From: Abyssibacter profundi
GTDB taxonomy: Bacteria; Pseudomonadota; Gammaproteobacteria; Nevskiales; OUC007
Reading direction: 5' to 3'
DNA length: 64,000 nucleotides
NCBI RefSeq assembly: GCF_003151135.1
Contig: NZ_QEQK01000006.1
Span: forward strand, 62,334-126,333
Positions within the stretch are counted from its first letter, which is position 1; every line of letters begins with the position of its first letter. A program made the translations under genes and the position numbers. This document shows positions 9,354 to 60,245 of the stretch, piece after piece. The notes beneath the pieces are model-generated. The model saw nothing but the letters and a program-made list of their open reading frames with translations. It had not been told where the DNA came from and did no database searches.

Positions 9354-11541
9354 TTACATCGTCCGGATCCTCGGCGATGCCAAAGGGCTGGAGGCGGCGC
9401 GCCGCAAGGTGACCGGCCAGTTCCAGCGCATGCGGGAGGATGGCGCCCGCACGTTCACCTCGCTGCGGCAGAACATTTTTAGCGTGCGCGGTGCGTTGTT
9501 CGGCCTGGCCGGCGCGTTCTCCTTCAGTGCCATTGCGGCGGGTGCCCGACAAGCCGCCAGCGACTTGCAGGAGGTCCGCCGCAGCGCAGATTCGCTGGGC
9601 ACCAGCGTCGAGCGGATCCAGGAGCTGAACTTCATCTTCCAGCGCCTGCTCCTGGACACCGACGATGTCGGTGATGCGCTTAACACCCTGGCTGACCGGG
9701 GCCTGGACGCGCAGTCCGGCATGCAGAGTTTCATCGACGATTTCCGCCTGATCGGCATCGAGGTCGAGGACCTGCGCGACAAGGATCCGGCCCAACTGTT
9801 CGAGCTGTTTGTCGACCGCATTGGGCGCATGGAAGACCCGACCCGCCGTAATGCCGCCGTGGTCCGCATTCTGGGCGACGACCTGGGCCGCAAGCTGCTG
9901 CCGTTCTTGATCCAGGGCGCCGAAGGGTTCGAGGACCTGCGCCGGCAGGCGCATGAGGCGGGCGCGGTCCTCGGCGAGCAGGCGATCGACGACGCGACCG
10001 AAGCCGCCCAGGCGTTTCGGGGCCTGAGCGAGGTATTCACTGCCACGCTGAACCGTGCGGTGGCAGATAACGCGGAGGGGTTCCGCGACCTAGCCAATAC
10101 CCTCAACAGTCCCGGAGTGCAGACTGGGCTGAAAGGGATGGTTGGCTTTCTGTCCACGATCGCGGGCTGGTTGGTCAAGATCACCAAGCTGGCTGGCAAC
10201 CTGGGCACTAACCTAGGCGAGTCCATCGCCGCGGCGATCTCTGGCGATGTCACGCAGTCGGTCGAGCAGATCGACAAGCAGATCGCGAAGATCCGGGCGC
10301 GGCTCGGCAGCAATACGCGTTTCTACTACCGTGGAGCGCCCGCACCGATCTCTGACGGTCAGCGCCACGATCTCGAGGCACAACTGGCCGAGCTTCAGCG
10401 CCTGCGCCAGCAGCTGGTCGAGGCTGAGGAGCGCGCCCGTTCCGAAGGTAGTGGCGGCGGAGGGCCGGGAGCCAGCGGCAACGGCCGTCTCGTTGGCACG
10501 GCAGACTCCTCGAACGATAGTACCCAGGCCATTCAGGCAATCATCGACCGCCTGCGCGAGCAGGTCGCCACCACCGGCGAGGCCGCGCAGGCCACCGAGA
10601 TCTATCGCCTGGAAAAGCTGGGCGCGAGTGACGCGACGCTGCGCCTGGCGCGGGATCTACTCACGCAGCGCGAATCGCAAAAGGCGGCCGCCGAAGCGGC
10701 CGAGGCCGAACGCCAGGCGCAGGCCGATGCCGAGGAGGCGTTGCGCATGCGCAACGAAGCCATCGCGGAACTGCGGGCAGAGAACATCTCGCTGATCGCT
10801 GCGATGGAGGAAGAGATCGCCCTCCAGCATCTCGGCAACCGGGAGCGCGCACAGGCCATTGCCGTGCGGCGGCTCAATGTAGAGGCCACTGCCGAGGAGA
10901 TCGCGCAGATCCGCGAGTTGGCCGGCGAGCTGTATGACCTCCACGAACGTGCGGACGAAACCGCCGAGGGCATGAGCGAGTACTTTCGCGAGGCGGCGCG
11001 GGGCATTCAGCGCTCCCTGGCCGACTTCCTCTTCGACCCGTTCGAGGAGGGACTGGACGGCTTGGTGGCCAGTTTCGCCGAAACGATCCAGCGCATGCTG
11101 GCCGAGGCCGCGGCCGCGCAGCTGGCGCGTGCCTTGTTTGGCGACGGGTTCGCCGCCGGCGGTGATCTCGGTGGGTGGGTGGGGCAGGGTTTGTCCTACC
11201 TGGCGGGCGGGGCGGGCACCAGCGCCGGCACCGGCCACACGGGGGGCATCATCGGCGGGGCAGGGCCACGCAAACAGGCATCGCCGCTGGCCTGGGCGGG
11301 TGCGCCCCGCATGCATCGCGGCGGGTTGCTGGGCCTGGCACCGGATGAGGTGCCGTTCATAGGTCTAAAGGGTGAGCGCGTGCTCTCGCGTGAGGAAACC
11401 CGCCAGTACGAACGCGGCGGCACAGTGGTCGTCAACGCGCCGATTACCACCCCCGATCCCCAGGCGTTTCGGCGCTCCAGCCAACAGGTCGAGGCGGCGA
11501 TCGGGGCCGCCGTGTCTCGTGCCGTGAGGCGCAACCGATGA
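9337..11541 (+). CDS. Tail tape measure protein
   Basis: 734 residues from ATG 9337. N-terminal YIVRILGDAKGLEAARRKV, a hydrophobic segment about residues 48-72, long alpha-helical stretches rich in Ala/Glu/Arg (coiled coil about 350-500), and a Gly-rich C-terminus with MHRGGLLGLAPDEVPFIGLKGERVLSREE, the conserved tail end of tape measures (EVPAILKGGEVVL-like). At about 0.15 nm per residue, the known rule for siphoviruses, a tail near 110 nm would be expected. Overlaps the GT chaperone and is coupled (ATGA) to the distal tail gene. Confidence 0.9.
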   Translation: MNRGTDYIVRILGDAKGLEAARRKVTGQFQRMREDGARTFTSLRQNIFSVRGALFGLAGAFSFSAIAAGARQAASDLQEVRRSADSLGTSVERIQELNFIFQRLLLDTDDVGDALNTLADRGLDAQSGMQSFIDDFRLIGIEVEDLRDKDPAQLFELFVDRIGRMEDPTRRNAAVVRILGDDLGRKLLPFLIQGAEGFEDLRRQAHEAGAVLGEQAIDDATEAAQAFRGLSEVFTATLNRAVADNAEGFRDLANTLNSPGVQTGLKGMVGFLSTIAGWLVKITKLAGNLGTNLGESIAAAISGDVTQSVEQIDKQIAKIRARLGSNTRFYYRGAPAPISDGQRHDLEAQLAELQRLRQQLVEAEERARSEGSGGGGPGASGNGRLVGTADSSNDSTQAIQAIIDRLREQVATTGEAAQATEIYRLEKLGASDATLRLARDLLTQRESQKAAAEAAEAERQAQADAEEALRMRNEAIAELRAENISLIAAMEEEIALQHLGNRERAQAIAVRRLNVEATAEEIAQIRELAGELYDLHERADETAEGMSEYFREAARGIQRSLADFLFDPFEEGLDGLVASFAETIQRMLAEAAAAQLARALFGDGFAAGGDLGGWVGQGLSYLAGGAGTSAGTGHTGGIIGGAGPRKQASPLAWAGAPRMHRGGLLGLAPDEVPFIGLKGERVLSREETRQYERGGTVVVNAPITTPDPQAFRRSSQQVEAAIGAAVSRAVRRNR

Positions 11542-38769: not shown

Positions 38770-40302
38770 ATGGTTGATTGCATGCGGGTGACGGCCGGAA
38801 GCCGTTGGCTAATGGGGGTTTGTGTACTGGGGCTGACATCGGTGGTCTCCGCGCAGGAGTACCACTACTGGACCAACCAGTTCGGGACACGCTCGGCATT
38901 GATGGGTGGTGCCATGGTGGCCGGAGTCCGGGACACCAGCGCCACGTACTACAACCCGGCCGGGCTGGCCTACGTGCCCGACCTGACCCTGTCGATCAAC
39001 GCCGATGCCTACCAGGTGCGCTCCATCAGCATCGAAGACGGTGCCGAGACGGGGCGGCCTCTGGAATCCTCGCAGCCTGGCTCGGTACCCCTGCTGCTCA
39101 GCGGGACAGTCCTGTTCAATGACGTGAAGCTGGGCTACAGCGTGCTCGCCCGTCAGTCGGGCGGGTCACAAATGTCCGAGCGGCTGCAGTTCTCCCAGGA
39201 TTTACTTTATGGCGGCCGTACGGTGGACATGCCGGGCGGGAACAGCCAACCAGCGTTTGGCGAGCAATCCAGCGGCCAGCTGGAAGACTACCGCGGCCAG
39301 ATGAGCTACAGCAGCAACCTCAGCGAGTACTGGGCCGGCCTGTCTTACGGGACCCTGCTATCGGATCGCTGGTCTGTCGGCGCCACGGCCTATGCGGCCT
39401 ACCGCAGTCAGTCGTCACTCATCGCCCAGACCGCCCGGGCGGCCAACCAGGTGACCCATGTGGCCGCCACGCAGGCCTACAACCGAGCGGTGGAATTCCA
39501 GAATTTGCGAGCGCTGCTCAAGCTGGGCGTTGCGGCTGACTGGGAATGGATTAAGGCGGGCCTGACGCTGACCACGCCCAGTGTGTCCCTGTCGGGCAGT
39601 GGGTCCAGCTCGCTGGTGTTCTCGGACATCAACAATCCCATCCAGGCCAACAATGGTGATCAGCTGCTCGACGGCCGCCAGGACAACCTGGACGCCGAAT
39701 ACGAGAACCCGATGTCCGTTGCCTTTGGCCTCGAGTTTCTGCTGGGCCAGACGCGCCTTGCGTTGGCCGCAGAATGGTTTGACAAGGTTGATCCCTACAC
39801 GGTGGTCGATGCCCGTTCCGAGAACCTGGTGCTGGGCAATGCCAATACACCGGTCGATGCCGACGAGGTTCTGGAGGTTCGTGACAGAGCCCGTAGCGTG
39901 ACCAACTTCGCCATTGGCATCGAACAACGCGTCAGCAATCGATACACCCTCTACGTAAGTGCGCGCACGGATAAATCGGCCTTCGACCGGGCGCCGAATG
40001 ACCCCAGCCTGTTCCTGAACAATAACAACTACGACATGGGCATCACGACCTGGGACAACAACAACATCACCGTCGGGTTCTCGCGCACATCCGAAAAATC
40101 CCTGTTGTCGGTTGGCTTGTCCTACACCTTTGCCAATGAATCCGACTACCAGCGGTTTTCCAGCGTCCGGCCCTTTAACCAGGGCGGATCCAGCTCGTCG
40201 TTCTTCCTCGTGCCGACACCCGGTGAGTTTGGAGGGGACGAGACCGATGTGAGTGCAAGCACCGTCAGCTTTCTGATCGGTTGGACGTACTTCGTCAAAT
40301 AA
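38770..40302 (+). CDS. OmpP1/FadL family outer membrane transporter
   Basis: 510 residues with a signal peptide (GVCVLGLTSVVSA-QEY). The FadL signature SATYYNPAGLAYV is near the N-terminus after GTRSALMGGAMVAGVRDT. Alternating beta strands follow, with a final aromatic-ended strand TVSFLIGWTYFVK, as needed for outer membrane insertion. FadL proteins carry long-chain fatty acids and other hydrophobic molecules into the cell. It precedes the Calx-beta giant by 74 bp and may be co-transcribed. Consistent with alkane/lipid use encoded further right. Confidence 0.85.
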   Translation: MVDCMRVTAGSRWLMGVCVLGLTSVVSAQEYHYWTNQFGTRSALMGGAMVAGVRDTSATYYNPAGLAYVPDLTLSINADAYQVRSISIEDGAETGRPLESSQPGSVPLLLSGTVLFNDVKLGYSVLARQSGGSQMSERLQFSQDLLYGGRTVDMPGGNSQPAFGEQSSGQLEDYRGQMSYSSNLSEYWAGLSYGTLLSDRWSVGATAYAAYRSQSSLIAQTARAANQVTHVAATQAYNRAVEFQNLRALLKLGVAADWEWIKAGLTLTTPSVSLSGSGSSSLVFSDINNPIQANNGDQLLDGRQDNLDAEYENPMSVAFGLEFLLGQTRLALAAEWFDKVDPYTVVDARSENLVLGNANTPVDADEVLEVRDRARSVTNFAIGIEQRVSNRYTLYVSARTDKSAFDRAPNDPSLFLNNNNYDMGITTWDNNNITVGFSRTSEKSLLSVGLSYTFANESDYQRFSSVRPFNQGGSSSSFFLVPTPGEFGGDETDVSASTVSFLIGWTYFVK

Positions 40303-40376
40303 CAGCTTTTGGCCGTCGCAGCACGATGCGACGCAGCATGGGGGCGGTCGTTGAGGCCGCCTGGGAGGAGCGGGAT

Positions 40377-43300
40377 ATGCGTCAGGATCAAGTACAACCT
40401 CAACCGGGTCACAGGTCTTCGGGCAAACATTGGCTGCAGCGACTGGCGCTGACCGCGCTGATGGTGCCCTGTCTGGTCATCGGTGGTGACGAACTGGCGC
40501 GCCAGTACATCGTGTTCCAGTACCAGGCCAACGATGCCGCCATCGGCGGTGAACAGACCGCCCCGGCCGTGGCGACCGCGGGCGGGCTGCAGTCGATCGG
40601 GTCCAACGCCGATGGCAGCACGCGGGTCGATCCGCTGGTGACCGTGACGGTCTGGGAAAGTCCCAACCAGGATGGCGATACCGACGGCGACCGGAACATC
40701 TACGGCTTGCTGCGCATCACCGATGCGGTGACGGCAAACCCCATCGAGTACAGCGATGGGGACACGACCTTCCCGGGCTGGACGCATCAGGAGATTCGAT
40801 TCGCCGTCAACTCCGATGGGGCCGGCGATCAGTCGGAGCCGCGCGTGGCGATCACGGCCTCTGATGGCAGCTTTCCCCAGACTTATCAGGTCCTCGTCAC
40901 CTGGACGGACTCGGGATCAGGTGTGCCCGTGGTCAAGGGCCGATTGTTCGCGTTCCAGTCCGATGATGCGAGCACGCTTGCGCCGCTGGACGGGCAGGGT
41001 GAGTTCACGGTGTTCCCGGGTACGTTCACGACCACACGTGCGTCGGACGTCGCGTTTGATACCACGGCCGATCCCATTCGGCGTTTTCTGGTGTCTGCCA
41101 TCTTCACGGCTGACGCAGGCACCGACCGCGGACTTATCGTCCGGCAGATCGCCGCCGATGACGCTGCAGGCACGGGCAATGTCATCACGCTCGTGGCCAC
41201 AGAAAGCGCGGGAGCACCTGTTCACCCGCTGACGCAGCGCCTGGCAGCCGGGCGCAATGTGTTCGGGCTTGTGTGGGATTTTGATGATGGTGCCGGCCGC
41301 CGGGATGTGCGTTGGCAACTCTTTGGTGCAGATGGCAGCGAGTATCTGGCCGCGCAGCGGGTCTCTCAGGTCGATGGCGGTGAATCCTATGCACGACCAG
41401 ATATCGCCCTGGGGGATATCTGCCCGGACGACGCGTTGGATGATTGCGCGGATAGTTTAGACAGTTCCGAGTCTTCGACGTCACTTAGTCCTGATCACGT
41501 TCTTCTGGTGATGGAGCCGAACCACTATCAGCTCATCCCGAACGAGAACGGGATGACTGGTCCAGCGAGCTACACACTTCCTGATAACTTGCAGACGATC
41601 GATTCCAGCGTAGCGTCGGTGAGCGGGCCGCAGGTCGTGACCGTTGGCAGGGCTGAGCGTGAAGGAGCGCAATCTAACACCGCGGGTAACTTCGGAAACT
41701 CCGCTGTGGACAACTATCCTCCCAAAGGTGAGGACTTCACGTTGACTTGGGTGCGAAGTAGTGCGCTGCCCGGGGTCGAGAGCGAGGTCATGGGGCGCCG
41801 TATCAGCCAATCGGATGACGTGACATTGACGGCGATCGGCCCGCTCCCTGCCGAACACAATGCCGCCCAGAATGTTGCTGTTGCGGGTTTCCCGTTTTCG
41901 CTCGTTGTGCGGGAGTACTGCTCAGATTTCGGCCAGGTTGATGGGCCGGATGATGGGACCTATTACTTCACCTACTGCCGTTCCCAGTTCATGGACTACG
42001 CCCTGGCATGGCAGGCATCCGGGCCAAATGACGATGGCGACATCTTTGTATCCCTGGTCGGGGATCCCGGTGGTGTCGATCTTGATCTAAGCGTTTACGA
42101 CGGGCCTGCAGAGGCCGAGGAAAATGAGGCGGGCCTCGCATTTACAGCCACGGTCAAGAACGCAAACAACCTGCCGGCGGGGCCCGGTTTTACCGTCAGA
42201 TTCCAGACCCCTTTCTCGGGCTTTACACGCACCGATTTTAATCGCTGGGCCTGTAATGCGGAGTCAGGCAGCGAGACCAATCGCGTCTGTACATACATCG
42301 GTAACCAGTTGAATCCCGGCTTCGAGATCCAGCTAAATTACGTAGCTACGGCGCCGGGCAGTGGCGGTGAGCTGAGCTCGATAGCAACGGTTCACGCCGA
42401 CGAAGGCGGGCAGGTCTACGATGGAACGGGGAGTTCCATGCCCTCTGAAGGCGGCTTTGGTGGGGTGGGCGACAATCCGGGCGAGGAGAAGAACCCGGAT
42501 ACAACTCGACAGAGCAAGACCGTCGAGACCAGCGTGAACAGCACCCCACCGGTCGTCTCCCTCCCGGAAACCACCAGCGAGGTTCTGGAAGACGCCGGCA
42601 CGCTGACCGTCACGGTGGCGCTGGATAAAAACGCCGAGGATGAGGTGTCGATCCCCTACAGCCTGTCGGGGACGGCGACCGCCGGCGACGATTATTCCAA
42701 CTTCACTGCATCGCCCATCGTCATTGCGGCCGGCAGTCGCGAGGCCACGATTCAGGGAACGGTGGTCGATGACTCGCTGGATGAGGGCCGTGAGACAGTG
42801 GTCATCACCCTGGGCACGCCCACCAATGCAACCCTGGGTGCGAATGACACACACACGCTCACGATCCAGGACGATGATCCGCTACCCACGCTGAGTGTTG
42901 CGGATGTCACGGTGACCGAAGGCGATGCCGACACCGTGAATGCGGTATTCACCGTCTCGCTGTCGGCGGCTTCGGGCCGTGCGGTGACGGTGGCATATGC
43001 CACCAGCGATGGCAGTGCGCGCACCGCGGATGGTGATTACCAGGCCCGCAGCGGGACGCTGAGCTTTGCGGCCGGCGAGACGACGAAAACGGTCACGGTG
43101 CCGGTCCAGGGGGACACCCGGGACGAGGCCGACGAAACCTTCGAACTGGGGCTGAGCGATCCGTCCAATGCGACGGTGACCACCAACTCGGCCACGGGCA
43201 CCATCACCGACGATGATCCGTTACCGGCGCTGTCGATTGCGGATGCAAGTCAGGCTGAGGGCGACAGCGGTACACGCGACCTGCAGTTCAGCGTTCAGCT

Positions 43301-46300
43301 GTCAGCGGCCAGCGGCCGAGACATCACGGTGGCCTATGCCACTTCCGATGGCACCGCCACGACCGCAGACTCGGATTACAACGCGGCCAGCGGAACCCTG
43401 ACCTTCGCCGCCGGAGAAACGCAGAAAACCATCGAAGTCTCGATTGTCGGAGACACGCGCAACGAGGCCGATGAGACCTTCGAGGTCACACTGAGCAACC
43501 CGGCGCAGGCGACATTGGATCAGGCCACCGCCACCGGCACGATTCAGAACGACGAGGGCTTGCCGACGTTGAGCGTGGCCGATGTCAGCGTGGCCGAGGG
43601 TCATAGCGGGACGACGGCCATGACATTCACGGTGGAACTGTCTGCCGTGAGCGGTCAGACGGTGACGGCCGATTATGCAACGGTGGAGGGCACGGCCACG
43701 GATGGAGATTTCGTGGCTGCGACGGGACAGATCACCATCCCGGCAGGCCAGTCTACGGCCAGTATCGAGATTAGCGTGCAGGGCGACCGCCTGGACGAGG
43801 CCGACGAGACATTCGATCTGGTACTCAGTAATCCGGGTAACGCGGCACTGGAGGATGGACGGGCCACGGGCACCATCGTGGATGACGATGCGACGCCGAG
43901 CCTGGCCATCGCAGCTGCTACGGTGACGGAAGGCAATAGCGGGCAGCAGACGCTAACGCTGGCGGTCACGCTGTCTGCGGCCAGCGGTCGCACGGTGACG
44001 GTTCGTTATACGACGCGGGATGGCTCGGCCACCACGGCAGACGGTGACTATCAGGCGCGCAGCGGACAGCTGAGCTTTGCGCCGTCTGAAACCAGCCAGT
44101 CGATTCAGGTCGCCGTCAACGGCGACACCCGCCACGAGCCGGACGAGCAGTTCTCCGTTCGTCTCAGCGAGGCCACGAATGCCACCATTCAGACCGCGAC
44201 GGCCAATGGCACCATTACCAATGACGACGCCGTGCCGGAGTTGCGTGTAGGCAACGCACAGGTCGAAGAGGGCAACAGCGGCACCGCCACGCTGAACTTC
44301 ACCGTGAGCCTGTCGGCTGCCAGTGGGCAGGCCGTGTCCATGCAGTTCGCGACGCGCGACGATTCGGCGACGACTGGTGATTCCGACTACTCGGCGGCCA
44401 GCGGCTCTCTGACGATTCCTGCAGGCGAGACGAGTCGTCGCGTGGCCGTCACGGTTGCCGGCGATACGCGCAACGAGGCCGATGAAACCCTGCAGCTGGT
44501 GATCAGCGAGGCGCAGAACGCACAAATCGTCGATGCAACAGGCGTCGGGACCATCGTCAATGACGACCCGCTGCCGGCACTGCGAATCGAGGATCGTTCA
44601 ATCGCTGAGGGTGATTCGGGGACCTCACGTCTGGTGTTCCCCGTCAGCCTCTCGGCCGCCAGCGGACGCATGGTCACGGTGAGTTACCAGACCGCCGATG
44701 GCACGGCCACGACGGCAGATGGTGACTACGTGGCCGCCAGCGGTTCTGTGGCTTTTGCACCCGGCGAGACGGCCAAGACCATCGAGGTGCAGATTTCGGG
44801 TGACACCGTGCGTGAGGAGGATGAATCCTTCTCGGTTACGCTGTCTTCTCCGGCCAATGCCAGTCTGGAGCGGGCGGCTGCCGCAGGCACCATCGTCAAC
44901 GACGAAGGCGTGCCCACTGTGACGGTCGCAGACGTGGAGATCGCCGAAGGTGACAGCGGACTGAGCCCAGTGGTGTTTGAGGTTCGCCTGTCGGCGGAAA
45001 GCGCCAGCGCAGTCACGCTGGACTTTGCGACCCGTGACGGGTCGGCGACGACCGTCGACAACGACTACGAGAGCAGCTCAGGCACGTTGACGTTCGCTCC
45101 GGGCGAGACGGCCAAGTCGGTCACCGTGAACGTGCGTGGCGATGCGCTGGATGAGGCCGACGAGCAATTCCAGCTGCAGCTGAGCAATGCCAGCGGTGCG
45201 GCCATTGGTGATTCTTCGGCGACCGCGACCATTACGGATGATGATCCCCTGCCTGCGCTGAGCATCGCCGATGTCACCTATGGCGAAGGCAATAGCGGGA
45301 GTCGTGTGGTGGAGATGACCATCAGCCTGTCCCGTACCAGCGGGCGCGATGTCTCACTGAGCTGGGCCAGTCGCGATGGGACGGCCACGACGGCGGACGG
45401 CGATTACCAGGCCGGTTCCGGCAGTCTGACCATTCCGGCCGGTTCGGCGAGTGCCACCATTGGCCTGCAGCTAGGGGGTGATACCCGGCACGAGGCCGAT
45501 GAACACCTGACGGTGACGCTCAGCAACCCAACCCATGCCACCCTGGCCGATGACACCGGGCGGTTGACCATTCGCAACGATGACGCGGCCCCTGCGCTGA
45601 GCGTGAGCGATGTGTCGGTCACCGAAGGAAATAGCGGTGATCGAAATGCCGCGTTTGTGGTCCGGCTCAGCGCGGCCAGTGGGCGCACCGCCAGCGTGCG
45701 ATTCGCCACTGCAGACGGTTCAGCCACCGCCAGTTCAGGTGACTATGTGGCACGGTCCGGCACGCTGACCTTCCAGGCCGGCGAAACCGAAAAAACCGTA
45801 GGTGTCACGGTGCGCGGGGATACGCGGGACGAACCCAACGAGACCTTTACCCTGGCCTTGAGCCAGCCCAGCGGTGCCAGTCTCGGTACGTCGACCGCCA
45901 CGGGCACCATCCGTGATGACGATGCCGCGCCTAGTCTGAGCGCCACCGGCGCATCGGTCTCGGAGGGTCATTCGGGCACGTCCTCACTGGTCTTCCAGCT
46001 GGACCTGTCGGCAGCCAGCGGCAAGACGGTTGCCGTGTCTGTGGCGACGGCCGATGGCTCGGCCTCGCAGGCCGCAGGTGACTACGAATCCGTGGCCACT
46101 CGCGTGAGCTTTGCGCCAGGCGAGACGCGCAAGCAGGTCGCGGTTCCGGTTCGGGGCGATCGGCTCAACGAGTCGGATGAGACGCTGGCATTGACCCTGG
46201 GCTCGGCGAGCAATGCCACATTGGCCACCACGTCGGTAACCGGCACGATCGTCAACGATGACCCCCTGCCAGCGCTGTCGATTGGCGACACCACCTTGGC

Positions 46301-47063
46301 GGAAGGAGACAGCGGCAATACGCAGGCCCAGTTCACGGTCCAGCTGTCTGCTGCCAGCGGCCGCGAGGTTCAGGTCAGCTACCAGACCAGTGACGACAGC
46401 GCGTCTGCCAGTGCCGGCGACTACGTCAGCAGCAGCGGCACGCTGGCACTGGCACCCGGCGAAACCTCAGCCACGGTGACGGTGCCGGTCAGTGGCGATT
46501 TGCTGGATGAGGCTGATGAGCGCTTTGTCGTCACCTTGAGTGCGCCGGTTCGGGCGACCTTGGCGGACGCCGAGGCGGTGGGACTGATTGAGGATGATGA
46601 CCGGATGCCAGAGCTGTCCATCGCATCGGCCGGCGTTCTGGAAGGTGATAGCGGCACGGTTAGCCTGCAGTTCGATGTAAGCCTTTCCGCGCCGAGCGGC
46701 CGCGCAGTCTCGGTTCGCTACGCCACTGCGGATGGAACAGCGACCACAGCTGACGGGGACTACGACGCCACCAGTGGCCAGCTCAATTTTGCGGCGGGTC
46801 AGACCATACGATCGATTTCGGTCACGGTGCGCGGGGACACGAATGTTGAGGCCGATGAGCAGTTCACCGTGGTACTGACGGATCCCGTCAACGCCGTCCT
46901 CGAGACCGCCAGCGCGACGGGTGGGATTGGCAACGACGATGAGGCCGGCGGTGGCGGTGGTTCGGGCAGCCTGGGTCTGTTGTGGCTCTGGGGCTGCCTG
47001 CTGGCCGGCTGGATGCGCCGCCGAGCCCTGGCCGAGCTGGGGAGGTCCCGACAGCCGGGCTGA
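40377..47063 (+). CDS. Giant Calx-beta repeat protein with GlyGly-CTERM anchor
   Basis: 2228 residues from ATG 40377 (GGAGGAGC upstream). N-terminal membrane segment or signal (LQRLALTALMVPCLVIGG), a mixed beta N-terminal domain of about 700 residues, then 13 Calx-beta repeats of about 113 residues, each with EGDSGT-type loop, DGSATTADGDY and ETFEVTLSNP motifs binding calcium. The C-terminus is GGGGGSGSLGLLWLWGCLLAGWMRRR, the GlyGly-CTERM sorting signal cut by rhombosortase. It would be a calcium-stiffened surface or adhesin protein. It is followed after 2 bp by the cyclase gene. Confidence 0.85.
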   Translation: MRQDQVQPQPGHRSSGKHWLQRLALTALMVPCLVIGGDELARQYIVFQYQANDAAIGGEQTAPAVATAGGLQSIGSNADGSTRVDPLVTVTVWESPNQDGDTDGDRNIYGLLRITDAVTANPIEYSDGDTTFPGWTHQEIRFAVNSDGAGDQSEPRVAITASDGSFPQTYQVLVTWTDSGSGVPVVKGRLFAFQSDDASTLAPLDGQGEFTVFPGTFTTTRASDVAFDTTADPIRRFLVSAIFTADAGTDRGLIVRQIAADDAAGTGNVITLVATESAGAPVHPLTQRLAAGRNVFGLVWDFDDGAGRRDVRWQLFGADGSEYLAAQRVSQVDGGESYARPDIALGDICPDDALDDCADSLDSSESSTSLSPDHVLLVMEPNHYQLIPNENGMTGPASYTLPDNLQTIDSSVASVSGPQVVTVGRAEREGAQSNTAGNFGNSAVDNYPPKGEDFTLTWVRSSALPGVESEVMGRRISQSDDVTLTAIGPLPAEHNAAQNVAVAGFPFSLVVREYCSDFGQVDGPDDGTYYFTYCRSQFMDYALAWQASGPNDDGDIFVSLVGDPGGVDLDLSVYDGPAEAEENEAGLAFTATVKNANNLPAGPGFTVRFQTPFSGFTRTDFNRWACNAESGSETNRVCTYIGNQLNPGFEIQLNYVATAPGSGGELSSIATVHADEGGQVYDGTGSSMPSEGGFGGVGDNPGEEKNPDTTRQSKTVETSVNSTPPVVSLPETTSEVLEDAGTLTVTVALDKNAEDEVSIPYSLSGTATAGDDYSNFTASPIVIAAGSREATIQGTVVDDSLDEGRETVVITLGTPTNATLGANDTHTLTIQDDDPLPTLSVADVTVTEGDADTVNAVFTVSLSAASGRAVTVAYATSDGSARTADGDYQARSGTLSFAAGETTKTVTVPVQGDTRDEADETFELGLSDPSNATVTTNSATGTITDDDPLPALSIADASQAEGDSGTRDLQFSVQLSAASGRDITVAYATSDGTATTADSDYNAASGTLTFAAGETQKTIEVSIVGDTRNEADETFEVTLSNPAQATLDQATATGTIQNDEGLPTLSVADVSVAEGHSGTTAMTFTVELSAVSGQTVTADYATVEGTATDGDFVAATGQITIPAGQSTASIEISVQGDRLDEADETFDLVLSNPGNAALEDGRATGTIVDDDATPSLAIAAATVTEGNSGQQTLTLAVTLSAASGRTVTVRYTTRDGSATTADGDYQARSGQLSFAPSETSQSIQVAVNGDTRHEPDEQFSVRLSEATNATIQTATANGTITNDDAVPELRVGNAQVEEGNSGTATLNFTVSLSAASGQAVSMQFATRDDSATTGDSDYSAASGSLTIPAGETSRRVAVTVAGDTRNEADETLQLVISEAQNAQIVDATGVGTIVNDDPLPALRIEDRSIAEGDSGTSRLVFPVSLSAASGRMVTVSYQTADGTATTADGDYVAASGSVAFAPGETAKTIEVQISGDTVREEDESFSVTLSSPANASLERAAAAGTIVNDEGVPTVTVADVEIAEGDSGLSPVVFEVRLSAESASAVTLDFATRDGSATTVDNDYESSSGTLTFAPGETAKSVTVNVRGDALDEADEQFQLQLSNASGAAIGDSSATATITDDDPLPALSIADVTYGEGNSGSRVVEMTISLSRTSGRDVSLSWASRDGTATTADGDYQAGSGSLTIPAGSASATIGLQLGGDTRHEADEHLTVTLSNPTHATLADDTGRLTIRNDDAAPALSVSDVSVTEGNSGDRNAAFVVRLSAASGRTASVRFATADGSATASSGDYVARSGTLTFQAGETEKTVGVTVRGDTRDEPNETFTLALSQPSGASLGTSTATGTIRDDDAAPSLSATGASVSEGHSGTSSLVFQLDLSAASGKTVAVSVATADGSASQAAGDYESVATRVSFAPGETRKQVAVPVRGDRLNESDETLALTLGSASNATLATTSVTGTIVNDDPLPALSIGDTTLAEGDSGNTQAQFTVQLSAASGREVQVSYQTSDDSASASAGDYVSSSGTLALAPGETSATVTVPVSGDLLDEADERFVVTLSAPVRATLADAEAVGLIEDDDRMPELSIASAGVLEGDSGTVSLQFDVSLSAPSGRAVSVRYATADGTATTADGDYDATSGQLNFAAGQTIRSISVTVRGDTNVEADEQFTVVLTDPVNAVLETASATGGIGNDDEAGGGGGSGSLGLLWLWGCLLAGWMRRRALAELGRSRQPG
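42552..46943 (+). repeat. Thirteen tandem Calx-beta repeats (protein level)
   Basis: Unit length about 338 bp (112-113 residues). Each starts with LSIADVxVxEGDSG and ends with TGTIxDDDPLP. DNA copies have clearly diverged, but the junction DDDPLP is almost invariant. The first unit is the most divergent. Confidence 0.9.
46944..47063 (+). other. GlyGly-CTERM sorting signal
   Basis: Five consecutive Gly then SGS, a hydrophobic stretch of about 16 residues and an Arg cluster. This is the tripartite GlyGly-CTERM arrangement processed by rhombosortase. No rhombosortase gene is in the window. Confidence 0.75.
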
Positions 47064-48922: not shown

Positions 48923-49399
48923 ATGCGACGACTTGGAATTTTGCTCATGCTGACCGCGGCGAGTTCGCTTCCCGCGCTCGCCGGAGAGGGGCGAATCATC
49001 CAGCCGGATGTGCTGCGGTCTGACCCAGGCTTCCGGGCGGAGCGACTGGGGACCGTGCCCATTGGCACGGTGGTCGAGATTCTCGAACAGGATGGCAATT
49101 GGGTGCAGGTGACGCTGCCCCAGCCCGCGACGGGCACGACGGCGGTGACCGGCTGGGTACGGTTGCTCAATGTCCACGTCTTCGAGCAAGACGATCACCT
49201 GAATGTCGTGTCCGATAGCGCGTATGGGGCCGACTCCGAGTTAACGGTGGCGACCGCGGTGCGCGGGATCGACGTGGAACGGATCGGCCGTGCAAATGCC
49301 GACTACAACGCGTTGGCGGCGGTATCGGGCTATGCGGCTTCCGATGAGGACGCCAGACGGTTTGCTGCAGACGGAGGCCTGACCCATGAACCGAAGTAA
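48923..49399 (+). CDS. Secreted SH3b-domain protein
   Basis: 158 residues from ATG 48923 (GTG 48920 also possible; GGGGGAGG ribosome binding site). Signal peptide ILLMLTAASSLPALA, then an SH3b-type domain (VLRSDPGFRAERLGTVPIGTVVEILEQDGNWVQVTL...GWVRLLNV), usual for periplasmic wall or protein binding. The C-terminus is helical and charged. Its last codons overlap the M48 gene start by 14 bp. Likely a partner of the metalloprotease. Confidence 0.8.
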   Translation: MRRLGILLMLTAASSLPALAGEGRIIQPDVLRSDPGFRAERLGTVPIGTVVEILEQDGNWVQVTLPQPATGTTAVTGWVRLLNVHVFEQDDHLNVVSDSAYGADSELTVATAVRGIDVERIGRANADYNALAAVSGYAASDEDARRFAADGGLTHEPK

Positions 49400-50315
49400 C
49401 CTGTGGCTGCTCCGGGTCGTTTCAGTGGTCGCCGGTCGCCTATTGCCCCTGGTGCTGGTGTTCTTGACTGCTTGTGCCGGTCAGCATTTTGATCCGGATT
49501 CGCGCCTGGGCGCGGCGGCTACGGCACTGGGTTTGAGCGATGACGTGGATGAATCCCGGGAAATTGAACTGGGCGAGCGGGCAGCGGCCCATTTGTTAGG
49601 CGCTTACCCGCCGGTCGAGGATAGCCGGCGTCAGCGCTACATCAACCTGGTGGGCCGCTGGGTGGCGCAGCAGTCCCAGCGTCCAGCCTTGCCCTGGCGC
49701 TTTGCGTTGATTGATGACCCCGCCATTAATGCACTGGCGGTGCCGGGTGGCATTGTGCTGCTATCCAGCGGGTTGTGGGACCTGCTCGAAACCGAAGCCG
49801 AACTGGCTGCGGTACTGGCTCATGAGATCGCCCATATCGAACAACAGCATCACATGCGAGCGCTGGTTCATCAGGGCGTGTGGGGGCGCTTGCTTAGCCA
49901 CAAGTTGGAGTTTGCCAACCGCTCGGGTGAGCGGGTCGTGATTACCTCGTCCGGACTGTACAAGCTACTGGCCACCAAACTGACACGGGAGGACGAACTG
50001 GCATCCGATCTCCGTGCCCACGCGCTGCTCGAGTCGGCCGGGTATGACAGCCACGCGCTGTCCAGCGTGTTGCGACGCATGGCCGAGGTCAACACCACAG
50101 ACGAAGGCCGGCTCAGCTATCTACTGAGCACCCATCCGCCCATGTCAGACCGGCTGGAAAGCCTGCAGACAGATGCGCCGCATCAGGGTGACGCCGGGAC
50201 TCAGGGACGCGATCGCTTCCTGGCGATTGCTCAGGGTCGGACGACCTTCGACGCGCAAGAGGCGGAGGAATCCGGCCCCGATCTCATCCCTACATTGTTG
50301 GACTTGTATTTCTAG
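49386..50315 (+). CDS. M48 family metalloprotease lipoprotein
   Basis: 309 residues. Lipoprotein signal with lipobox LTAC at about residues 27-30. Zinc motif HEIAH at 146-150, third ligand Glu204 in REDELASDLRA; PGGIVLLSSGLWDLLETEAELAAVLAHE is the conserved lead-in. BepA/LoiP-type proteases control outer membrane protein quality. No C-terminal TPR is present. With CHASE2 cyclase and SH3b genes, it closes the operon behind the Calx-beta giant. Confidence 0.9.
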   Translation: MNRSNLWLLRVVSVVAGRLLPLVLVFLTACAGQHFDPDSRLGAAATALGLSDDVDESREIELGERAAAHLLGAYPPVEDSRRQRYINLVGRWVAQQSQRPALPWRFALIDDPAINALAVPGGIVLLSSGLWDLLETEAELAAVLAHEIAHIEQQHHMRALVHQGVWGRLLSHKLEFANRSGERVVITSSGLYKLLATKLTREDELASDLRAHALLESAGYDSHALSSVLRRMAEVNTTDEGRLSYLLSTHPPMSDRLESLQTDAPHQGDAGTQGRDRFLAIAQGRTTFDAQEAEESGPDLIPTLLDLYF

Positions 50316-50385
50316 CGAAGCGCCAATCTATTCGCACCGCCGAGACGGCGCCGGTTTTCCCGCGAGCCCAGGCAGAGTGAGTGCC

Positions 50386-50689
50386 GCTTGGTTATTCCAA
50401 ATCAGCGCACGACACGAATGCGTCGGGAACGTATTCGGACGGCCGCAGGCCGGCCCGAAGGGCGAAGCGCATGGACGCGCTTCGCAACGCAGGATCGCGG
50501 GAAAATCGGCCCGTTCCGTCTGGATTGCGCCTGCAAACAGGCCAGACTGCGTTAGTCGGCGCATCCATGCGCCTCCCCCGGTGGGCCCGCCTTCGGCGGT
50601 TTCAATTCGCTCCCGGCGAATGGGTGCTCGTCGTTCATTTGGAATGACCAAACTTCGCTCCTCGCGCCTTGCCTGGCCTGTTTGCAGGC
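50386..50689. repeat. MITE-like palindromic intergenic element
   Basis: Ends GCTTGGTTATTCCAAAT (50386-50402) and ATTTGGAATGACCAAAC (50637-50653) are inverted repeats matching at 15 of 17 bases; similarity continues inward for about 45 bp. Inside are several hairpins: CGAAGCGC...GCGCTTCG, GGCGCATCCATGCGCC (50558-50573) and CCGCCTTCGGCGG. A second inverted pair, 17 bp perfect, is at 50529-50545 and 50673-50689, partly outside the ends. No transposase. It fills the gap between the M48 gene and the AraC gene. Confidence 0.65.
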
Positions 50690-50723
50690 AGCAACTGGGC
50701 GGTGCGAATCAATCAGCGCTTTC

Positions 50724-51734
50724 CTAACGGCCGCCTTGTTGCCGGAGCTGGGTCGGGCTGCGTTCAAACCAGCGCCGGCAGTTGCGACACAGCACGGTCT
50801 GGTCGGCCAGCCCGAGCTGGCCGGCGACCTGTACCAGGGGTTCATCGGTCTCGGTGAGCCATTGCAGCGCCTGCTCCCTGCGAACGCTGTCCAGGATGTC
50901 CTGATAGCGCTGGCCTTCCGCGGCCAGTCGGCGCTGCAGCGTACGGGGGTGGATGTCCAGCAAACGTGCAATCACGTCGCGGCGGCCCAGGCTGGTGGAC
51001 AGCGTCCGCCTGAGCACCGACTCCACCTGTTCGGTCAGGGTTTGCTGATCGGGGTGAAATGCCAGCTGCAGGTACTCCAGGCTCAGGCGCTGAAGCTCTT
51101 CGGACGCCCCCTGCAGCGTGGTATCGAGAAAATGATCGGGCAGGATCAGCTCGGCATGCGGCTCCTCGAACGTGAGGGCCGGGCCGAACACCTGGGCGTA
51201 GCGACTGGCTGGGGCGGCCGGCGGGTGCGGCATGTGGACCTGCACCAGGGGAACCGGCGCCTGCGCCAGCCACTGAATAAAGTGCAGCAAGTCGGCCACG
51301 CACTGCTCCATGACCTGACGGTGCGGCAGCCAGGAAGGTGCGACCAGCAACAGACGCAGCGCGATCATCCCGGCCTTCGGTACGCCGGGATGCATGCTCA
51401 GGCGAATGGCGGGGCTGTGGGTATGCATATAGCCCAGGCAGATTCGCAAGGCATCGCCCATGGTGTTGGCGTTCTGCATCGCAATGGCCAGCGGTCCCAG
51501 AATGCCGATGTCCTGGCGCTCGGCCATACGCAGGCCCAGGTCAGGGCAATCAGCCGCCCCGGCCACATGCTCAAGCAGCTGGGCATAGGCGACCAGCGAG
51601 ATGCGCAGATCATCGTCGTCCAGCGCGGTCAGCGGAATCCCGAAGCGTTGCATCAGCGGCTCGACCGGCTGCTTCAGTTCCACGAGCAGCTCGGCGAGGC
51701 CGCGCATGCCGGCGGCTCTGAACAGGGTCGACAT
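50724..51734 (-). CDS. AraC-family regulator with Arabinose_bd-type sensor domain
   Basis: 336 residues from ATG 51734. The N-terminal half is the PF12625 sensor (RGLAELLVELKQPVEPLMQRFGIPLTAL); the C-terminal half is a HTH_18 domain with RRDVIARLLDIHPRTLQRRLAAEGQRYQDI and a second helix-turn-helix. Regulators of this type govern fatty-acid, alkane or sterol use. Divergent from the AlmA-type gene with 107 bp between starts, so it likely controls it. A TTGACA lies close upstream on this strand, giving a very short leader if used. Confidence 0.85.
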   Translation of the reverse strand: MSTLFRAAGMRGLAELLVELKQPVEPLMQRFGIPLTALDDDDLRISLVAYAQLLEHVAGAADCPDLGLRMAERQDIGILGPLAIAMQNANTMGDALRICLGYMHTHSPAIRLSMHPGVPKAGMIALRLLLVAPSWLPHRQVMEQCVADLLHFIQWLAQAPVPLVQVHMPHPPAAPASRYAQVFGPALTFEEPHAELILPDHFLDTTLQGASEELQRLSLEYLQLAFHPDQQTLTEQVESVLRRTLSTSLGRRDVIARLLDIHPRTLQRRLAAEGQRYQDILDSVRREQALQWLTETDEPLVQVAGQLGLADQTVLCRNCRRWFERSPTQLRQQGGR

Positions 51735-51841
51735 GTCTCCAAATACAAAACATCTGTCTTCAAATGTCAATCCACGTCGCCGCCCCGGCGCGATGATGGC
51801 GTTAAGGGCGCGTGTAAAGCCCCATCAAAGAGGAGAATCCC

Positions 51842-59710: not shown

Positions 59711-59747
59711 CCACCCAGCCTCGTGGGCGGCGGGCCTGCGGCCTGGG

Positions 59748-59903
59748 TTAGTGCTGACGTTCGTAGAGGCTGACCACGCAGGCGCCGCCCAGCCCCAGGT
59801 TATGCTGCAGGCCGATCCGGGCACCCTCGACCTGGCGATCACCGGCCTGGCCCCGAAGCTGGCGAACCAGCTCGGTGCACTGTGCCAGGCCCGTCGCACC
59901 CGC
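59748..59903 (-). pseudogene. Thiolase C-terminal remnant
   Basis: The reverse strand reads [17 protein letters not shown] followed by [22 protein letters not shown] and a stop. This is the end of a lipid-transfer-type thiolase (the usual text is GHPLGATGLAQ...[11 protein letters not shown]). Upstream in the same frame, the sequence no longer looks like a thiolase, and the rest of the gene, including both active-site Cys regions, is absent. It is about 50 residues of an approximately 390-residue enzyme. Confidence 0.6.
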
Positions 59904-60098: not shown

Positions 60099-60120
60099 CC
60101 CGACGCATGGATGCGTCGGG
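60099..60120. repeat. Perfect hairpin with CGCATCCATGCG core
   Basis: CCCGACGCAT-GG-ATGCGTCGGG, 10-bp stem. Lies downstream of tRNA-Arg in its reading direction and could end transcription, though no T-tract follows. The core also occurs in the MITE-like element at 50558-50573, so it may be a member of the same repeat family. Confidence 0.55.
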
Positions 60121-60168: not shown

Positions 60169-60245
60169 TGGCGCGCCCGGCAGGATTCGAACCTGCGACC
60201 GCCGGCTTAGAAGGCCGATGCTCTATCCAGCTGAGCTACAGGCGC
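60169..60245 (-). tRNA. tRNA-Arg (anticodon UCU)
   Basis: On the reverse strand: acceptor GCGCCTG paired with CGGGCGC, D-arm TAGCTCAGCTGGATAGAGC, anticodon stem-loop CGGCCTTCTAAGCCG with TCT, T-arm GCAGGTTCGAATCCTGC, and encoded CCA. 77 nt. All stems pair well. Confidence 0.95.

Follow-up and report, generated by a model that had tools for sequence, protein, structure and literature searches.

In the genome of Abyssibacter profundi, a long palindrome fills the space between two convergent genes, and it raises the question of what kind of element this is and how it could have come to lie there. I analysed a window of 64,000 nucleotides around it, by which I mean the whole stretch (contig NZ_QEQK01000006.1, positions 62,334 to 126,333 of the forward strand). 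A sequence-only reading of this window had proposed a MITE-like or REP-type element with nested inverted repeats, non-coding, located between operons and likely to belong to a dispersed family.

Borders, parts and copies of the element

Comparison of the copies in the host draft sets the borders of the element. Among aligned host copies the common sequence runs from about 50312 to 50726 and the flanks outside are unrelated, which places the true element at 50316-50723 (Table 1) instead of at 50386-50689, as had been read before. The covariance model discussed below matches the window copy at 50317-50723 (159.8 bits, E 3.8e-46). The 17-bp terminal repeats with 15 matches that the sequence-only reading had reported (a pair I reconstructed by eye) are the tips of the two hairpins, with 50386-50402 in hairpin A and about 50637-50653 in hairpin B. 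Its second inverted pair of 17 bp does exist and is perfect (50529-50545 and 50673-50689), but is the stem of hairpin B and not an element end. The nested palindromic structure itself was recognised correctly: in addition to this perfect pair, the window stretch matches itself in inverted orientation over 363 nt with 65.8% identity (E 1e-36). The region 50340-50720 folds to -200.6 kcal/mol, a value for the native sequence alone.

Table 1. Positions of the element's parts in the window copy
Feature	Position	Strand	Remark
Whole element, 408-bp form	50316..50723	+	Ends by comparing 40 fetched host stretches
Left target-site copy, CTAG	50312..50315	.	Contains the TAG stop of the + strand ORF 49386-50315
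Left terminal inverted repeat	50316..50335	+	Degenerate in the window copy; mismatched to the right repeat at 6 of 20 positions
Hairpin A, with block B inside it; tip about 50386-50403	50350..50513	+	Limits approximate, by eye
Block B, extra 72 nt, missing from 264-bp copies	50413..50484	+	Alignment of 21 host copies
Central linker with mini-hairpin	50514..50528	+	Limits approximate, by eye
Hairpin B, with block B' inside it; outer stem 50529-50545 / 50673-50689	50529..50689	+	
Block B', the other extra 72 nt, homologous to block B in inverted orientation	50553..50624	+	52 of 70 aligned positions identical
Hairpin B tip, GTCGTTCATTTGGAATGACCAAACTTC	50630..50656	+	Within the region that other genomes of the order match most frequently
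Right terminal inverted repeat	50704..50723	-	
Right target-site copy, CTAA	50724..50727	.	3 of 4 positions the same as left; CTA is the reverse-strand stop of ORF 50724-51770

The non-coding, intergenic position is confirmed, as the element lies exactly between the stop codons of two convergent open reading frames, 49386-50315 on the plus strand, with a product that I take to be metallopeptidase-like, and 50724-51770 on the minus strand, presumably AraC-like. Since CTAG contains TAG on both strands, both convergent stops survive an insertion with duplication in the window copy, and the ancestral target site was probably the common end of the two genes. In the host, the usual ends of the element read CTAG followed by GGAAGCACTGATCTATTCGC, plus the inverse of this sequence.

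The family is indeed dispersed. A sequence search of the host draft gives 157 alignments to the stretch, and the covariance model finds 70 matches counting both strands, or about 37 distinct places, some of which are halves at contig ends. A single-copy sequence, the outcome that the earlier reading had named as speaking against itself, was thus not found; the sequence is multi-copy in the host genome. The 25 copies with both ends fall into size classes, with 8 copies of 264 bp, 6 of 336 bp, 7 of 407-415 bp and 4 of 80-178 bp. In being multi-copy, non-coding, shorter than about 500 bp and bounded by terminal inverted repeats, the family agrees with MITEs. What sets the 336- and 408-bp forms apart is the presence of one 72-nt block (B or B') or of both, located in the hairpins at positions that mirror each other; four of the six 336-bp copies have B only and the other two B' only. 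Because the 264-bp form is the usual one elsewhere, both blocks would be later additions to the host copies. Sequence matches to block B-like stretches occur in other genera (G021, G007 and G005). The end counts come from the 40 fetched host stretches, in which four short or truncated copies were kept that are excluded from the alignment of 21 copies (>250 bp).

Small palindromes that consist of ends only, about 43-95 bp long, are also found. Three of them (L222, L224 and L226) keep pieces of the arms, as judged by eye, and look like internal deletions. L224 (contig C4 of the host draft G000, about 223783-223863) is an 81-bp end-to-end palindrome with arm pieces, situated between a terminator-like stretch and a tRNA-like sequence. 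A TTAA-flanked mini-element with family ends and an unrelated interior occurs in the host (L225, C11, about 10747-10841) and in G003 (L227), apparently at one site in two genera, with near-identical flanks. Copies of the element are located at the ends of the G000 contigs C2, C3, C4, C9, C13, C17, C18 and C25, so the family may explain some of the assembly breaks; matching rare end variants suggest that C13 and C25 join at one copy.

Target sites and matching insertion sequences

The joined flanks of six host copies were searched in three relatives. A clean empty site is observed at one of the six loci (L053), in two congeners: where the host has TTAA, 264 bp of element and again TTAA, the sequence of G002 runs through with a single TTAA and that of G001 with GTAA (the junction reads GCGTTAAGATTCGCGG in G002 and CGGTAAGATTCGCGG in G001, against TTAA-element-TTAA-GATTCGCGG in the host). 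Therefore, the family transposes with a 4-bp duplication, and at this locus both the target duplication and the empty site of a MITE are seen. As for the remaining loci, L044 is contiguous but gapped in G002, L034 has no full element in G001, with a junction that is not clean, and an end-like remnant in G002, L035 aligns on one side only, up to the junction, and the joined flanks of L032 and L046 have no match in the three relatives searched.

Over all copies, the 4-mers of the flanks agree more within than between copies (permutation, 0.001), and identical pairs are observed in 4 of 25 copies (CTAG, TTAA, CTTG and CTAA; one of these is L060, a doubtful copy of 109 bp). The target duplications of the other host copies are mostly decayed. 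The window copy counts against a clean mobility signal, with degenerate ends (14 of 20 positions match) and flanks CTAG/CTAA. Among the 29 model hits from other genomes, 18 have a TA at most 4 nt away on both sides. A 4-bp duplication of YTAR is the rule in the IS5 family, and this is what the family shows, with many decayed cases.

A transposase with the same ends, which the sequence-only reading had proposed to look for, occurs in another genome of the order, whereas none was found in the host draft. This candidate partner was found via an end-pattern search of 100 related genomes, host included. The terminal sequence of the host elements, GGAARCACTGATC, is equal over 13 nt to the ends of a same-order IS5-type IS: in G028, which belongs to another family of the order than the host of the element, a 1232-bp IS (ends GGAAACACTGATCAAGT) starts on either side with the 13 nt GGAAACACTGATC. 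This IS, which I take to be of the IS5 group, is present in 11 identical copies and encodes a transposase with the domains DDE_Tnp_1 and DUF772. Identical 4-bp flanks surround six of the seven distinct copies read (TTAA twice, CTAA, TTAG, CTAG twice), and the seventh, L104, is flanked by TTAG/CTAA. An IS5-type copy from the genus of the host itself (G001) has ends less similar to those of the element. Searches of the host draft gave neither a DDE_Tnp_1 gene (E<=0.01) nor a counterpart of the G028 transposase (E<=1e-20); an autonomous partner in the same genome is common for MITEs, but not required.

A second match is observed in Azotobacter vinelandii, where the elements of a sister lineage end in GGCCTGTTAACACTAC. 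Six end pairs in this genome are 831 bp apart, and the three that were read are an 825-bp IS with the domains DUF4096 and DDE_Tnp_1, one end of which is identical to the end of a resident element over 16 nt; its flanks are CTAG/CTAG twice and CTAG/CTAA once. Plasmid records that match the 30-nt end annotate an IS5 family transposase there in 3 of 11 cases (Enterobacter, Pseudomonas and Polaromonas), with IS of 803-822 bp and CTAG on both sides. The IS in Azotobacter and on the plasmids, presumably IS427-like, have the ends GGCCTGTTAACACTA. The elements themselves are rare on plasmids, as two query copies matched 3 and 4 of 72,556 records, over about a fifth of their length. When the plasmids were searched with the host-type end, 8 records matched, all at E 0.1 or weaker and none with a transposase under the match; the 30-nt G110-type end yielded only chance-level matches. 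With exact or near-exact end patterns, element-sized end pairs are many and IS-sized pairs none clear in Stutzerimonas nitrititolerans, Alloalcanivorax and G110/G241, while G110 also has two wider pairs of about 1.1 and 2.7 kb. In G045, an IS5-type copy (L137) has its TTAA preceded by GGGCCTG, as if inserted into the end of a family element.

From the 13-nt equality with an IS5-type IS in G028, next to that over 16 nt in the A. vinelandii sister lineage, I conclude that the element is probably a MITE which IS5-family transposases mobilise in trans. Judged from these sequence comparisons, the window element would be an old copy of such a non-autonomous DNA transposon, with a core that has been refitted with ends, and I consider this reading to be about 85% probable. 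A transposase made elsewhere would act on both terminal inverted repeats, and the element would insert at a YTAR tetranucleotide (CTAG, TTAA) that is then duplicated, as seen for one sister copy. The enzyme would belong to the IS5 family, of the IS5 group in the order of the host and presumably IS427-like in Azotobacter and on plasmids; its matching ends are observed, and its action in trans is the presumed part.

The folded core and its ends

A DNA match to the window copy is present in 20 of 61 related genomes, most often in hairpin B. With a 27-mer from this hairpin I obtained 54 stretches of named genomes, from Azotobacter, Stutzerimonas, Pseudomonas, Alloalcanivorax, Algicola, Thiodiazotropha, Oceanococcus, Salinisphaerales, Abyssibacter, Methylobacillus (one betaproteobacterium) and others; the Abyssibacter and Salinisphaerales copies have the same end type as the host copies. 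Ends were assigned to 48 of the 54 by maximising the left-right match, a few of them wrongly as judged by eye (L154, L169), and 31 of these 48 stretches are 260-266 bp long. Alignment A1, made without regard to structure, has 27 rows (22 of the 48 stretches, four host copies and L211), leaving out L142 (285 bp) and other length outliers. In its consensus fold a terminal stem is followed by hairpins A and B, with the mini-hairpin between them, and 67 of the 83 pairs show double (compensatory) changes. Paired cells make up 95.7% of 2239, compared with 68.1% when shuffled, and covariation is 0.688, compared with 0.181 when shuffled and at most 0.139 when slid. The core of about 263 bp thus forms two long hairpins, separated by the mini-hairpin, and a terminal stem, and the covariation shows that this fold is conserved across Gammaproteobacteria under changing stem sequences.

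The covariance model, R1, built from 27 elements, finds this structure of about 263 bp at E<=1e-5 in 70 of 232 gammaproteobacterial genomes, host included, or 63 of 197 genera, in a sample spread evenly over the class, and in 52 of 232 genomes at E<=1e-20. The survey used strict filters and mostly 8 scored candidates per genome, so that counts per genome are lower bounds and E-values rough, and weak hits may include other palindromes. In a check of specificity, two TIME-sized palindromes of 262 bp in plasmid QKH54 were not matched. The conservation of the hairpin B tip in A1 is inflated because its rows were chosen by the 27-mer there. A tip resembling that of hairpin B is retained in 14 of the 29 best hits from other genomes (two with a changed base, one in part) and is therefore not a universal feature.

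Changes at one end of a copy go along with changes at the other. Among the host copies, the left end departs from the right one at 1.72 of 20 positions within a copy and at 3.85 between copies (0 of 5000 permutations); the ends were here picked by match to one consensus, so the test does not lean towards left-right matching. Hardly any such effect is observed for the next 20 nt inward (8.32 within, 8.57 between, 187 of 5000). The corresponding figures from other genomes, 1.9 versus 9.62 with ends by best match and 1.31 versus 10.9 with ends by model, are biased towards matching. The simplest cause that I infer for the matched ends is template switching between the arms of the palindrome, which during replication would keep the arms of one copy alike. 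Alternatively, the matching could result from compensatory selection on pairing, with no copying involved, and this explanation has a serious claim, if somewhat short of an even chance, as stems throughout the element covary, ends included. However, several adjacent changes are found on both ends of one copy (e.g. L033 and L055), for which one copying event is the simpler explanation, and homogenisation of inverted repeats by template switching is reported from yeast (PMC8604942).

In a tree of the cores without their ends, the end types are mixed. Of 14 end/core pairs picked by eye from this tree, L234-L230 combines a core identity of 80.6% with ends of 30%, L234-L170 80.1% with 40%, L188-L172 78.7% with 45%, and L050-L156, of which L050 is a host copy, 69.7% with 20%. 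Conversely, ends of 75% go with a core of 47.4% in L249-L050 and of 50.5% in L188-L243, and ends of 80% with a core of 50.5% in L211-L231. The pair L252-L257 is less clear (ends alike by eye, 40% without gaps), and L253-L257 agree in both (ends 70%, core 65.4%). Because cores of about 80% carry unrelated ends and similar ends sit on cores of about 50%, the ends appear to have been repeatedly replaced on a conserved core. The discordance is observed; the core would over time have been fitted with different ends, possibly by recombination or capture. The main rival to replacement is that different ends are the result of ordinary divergence of one ancestral terminal repeat. Some ends do grade into each other (the GGYCTGTTNAC types), and host ends vary faster than the core (0.178 versus 0.047 per site in 21 copies), yet I regard divergence as unlikely, given ends at 30-45% on cores that are about 80% identical and the recurrence of similar ends on cores of about 50%.

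If the ends are indeed replaceable, the core might be the heritable identity of the lineage, persisting in Gammaproteobacteria and at least one betaproteobacterium by swapping its ends for those that suit local IS5-family transposases, with template switching in the palindrome keeping both ends alike. I put this forward tentatively, as a possibility that is rather more likely to fail than to hold; if true, the core is a parasite or a host-useful structure that is tied to no single transposase.

The strong covariation could also mean that the core is a functional structured RNA or an RNA-level regulator (terminator, mRNA stabiliser) under selection, with mobility being incidental. In line with this, at least one flank of 13 of the 25 copies carries a long open frame (candidate gene) whose end is 3 nt away from the element (on both sides in L032, L035, L038 and L060, 4 of 25, and on one side in 9 more). 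On the model strand of A1, G-T mismatches are more frequent than A-C (56 to 36, p 0.047), as expected if G-U is tolerated, and in the window copy the model strand outscores the other (159.8 versus 111.3 bits), the model itself being strand-specific. However, G-U makes up 2.9% of paired cells compared with 11.8% in shuffles (outside the tip helix), the changes in the stems are mostly double Watson-Crick substitutions, and Rfam 15 gives no match at gathering score, with mir-3180 and PrrB_RsmZ far below the cut-offs; an excess of 123 to 53 among the 29 model hits carries a bias from the choice of strand and from alignment to the model. As a means of telling selection on RNA from selection on DNA, the mismatch counts are weak and partly biased. 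A main role as RNA is therefore improbable, and these observations favour a palindrome at the level of DNA, in which any RNA component is modest at most.

Relation to known repeats

Of the two labels that were first given to the locus, MITE-like stands, on account of the size classes, the terminal repeats, the 4-bp duplication and the IS5-family ends. The other, a REP/BIME-like element moved by a RAYT (HUH tyrosine) transposase of the host, has next to no chance of being right, because, although the two oppositely oriented hairpins recall a REP doublet and the host has one PF01797 gene, the empty site shows a 4-bp target duplication, the ends are common to DDE IS5-family elements, full copies are 264-415 bp long compared with the 20-40 bp reported for REPs (PMC3733652), and the 3321 bases around the PF01797 gene hold no model match, let alone such short hairpins flanking a RAYT gene. 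This RAYT-type gene stands alone in the host (L031, G000:C3:2797-3117). In the same paper, the GTAG and CGTC superfamilies of REP/BIME likewise have palindromic units, often paired and in many copies (PMC3733652). They differ in their 20-40 bp units, an unpaired tetranucleotide tag and, for the GTAG types, a link to RAYT genes, whereas the window family has about 263 bp, IS5-type ends and a YTAR duplication.

TIMEs, described as 262-bp Tn3-derived MITEs of Pseudomonas (PMC4133298), are alike in length, long inverted repeats, stable fold and presumed movement in trans, and differ in the Tn3-type 38-bp ends and 5-bp duplications that are ascribed to them. The window family is not among them, with its 4-bp duplication, its other ends and a model that leaves the TIME-sized elements of QKH54 unmatched. 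The general traits that a survey of prokaryotic MITEs puts forward (PMC10969869) are shared: short non-coding form, terminal repeats, target duplication, IS-like ends, stable fold, size classes and truncated copies. According to the same survey, MITEs share much of their parent IS, or only its ends; the family differs from this general picture in that its core structure is conserved across a bacterial class, while the ends differ by lineage.

The usual view of MITEs is that they are the decayed offspring of one IS, with the ends as their defining part. This family seems to be the opposite case, in which the folded core has a wider distribution than any one of its ends. Should the exchange of ends be confirmed, it would explain how so small an element can persist beyond its transposases, and it would offer a clean test case for palindrome-driven concerted evolution in bacteria. 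A search of the literature by topic and by sequence strings, with ISfinder and subscription papers outside its scope, gave no description of the family. As far as searched, the family is unnamed; it is large, with a conserved fold and changing ends, and the covariance model marks it in about three of ten sampled gammaproteobacterial genomes (70 of 232). Correia/NEMIS, ERIC and RUP are palindromic MITEs with internal-deletion variants and TA-containing targets, which I liken to the window family by description alone. NEMIS, ERIC and RUP are also named as MITEs in the paper on REP sequences (PMC3733652).

Elsewhere in the window, a hairpin around GACGCATGGATGCGTC is located at 60103-60120, beside a tRNA gene (60172-60245, minus strand), and resembles a hairpin in block B. 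The sequence-only reading had taken a sequence common to this hairpin (given as 60099-60120) and the element as an argument for dispersal, which proved wrong, as the 12-mer lies in block B', outside the core. On the plus strand of the window CGCATCCATGCG is found only at 50560, and the hairpin at about 60103-60120 has its reverse complement. The covariance model does not match this hairpin, its nearest hit being 59733-59813 at chance level (E 0.56), and the hairpin is perhaps a separate REP-like repeat. In G021 (L081), a B-like stretch is likewise located near a tRNA-like sequence. Finally, an open reading frame of 2260 amino acids at 40281-47063 consists of many repeated stretches, which are presumably Calx-beta-like.
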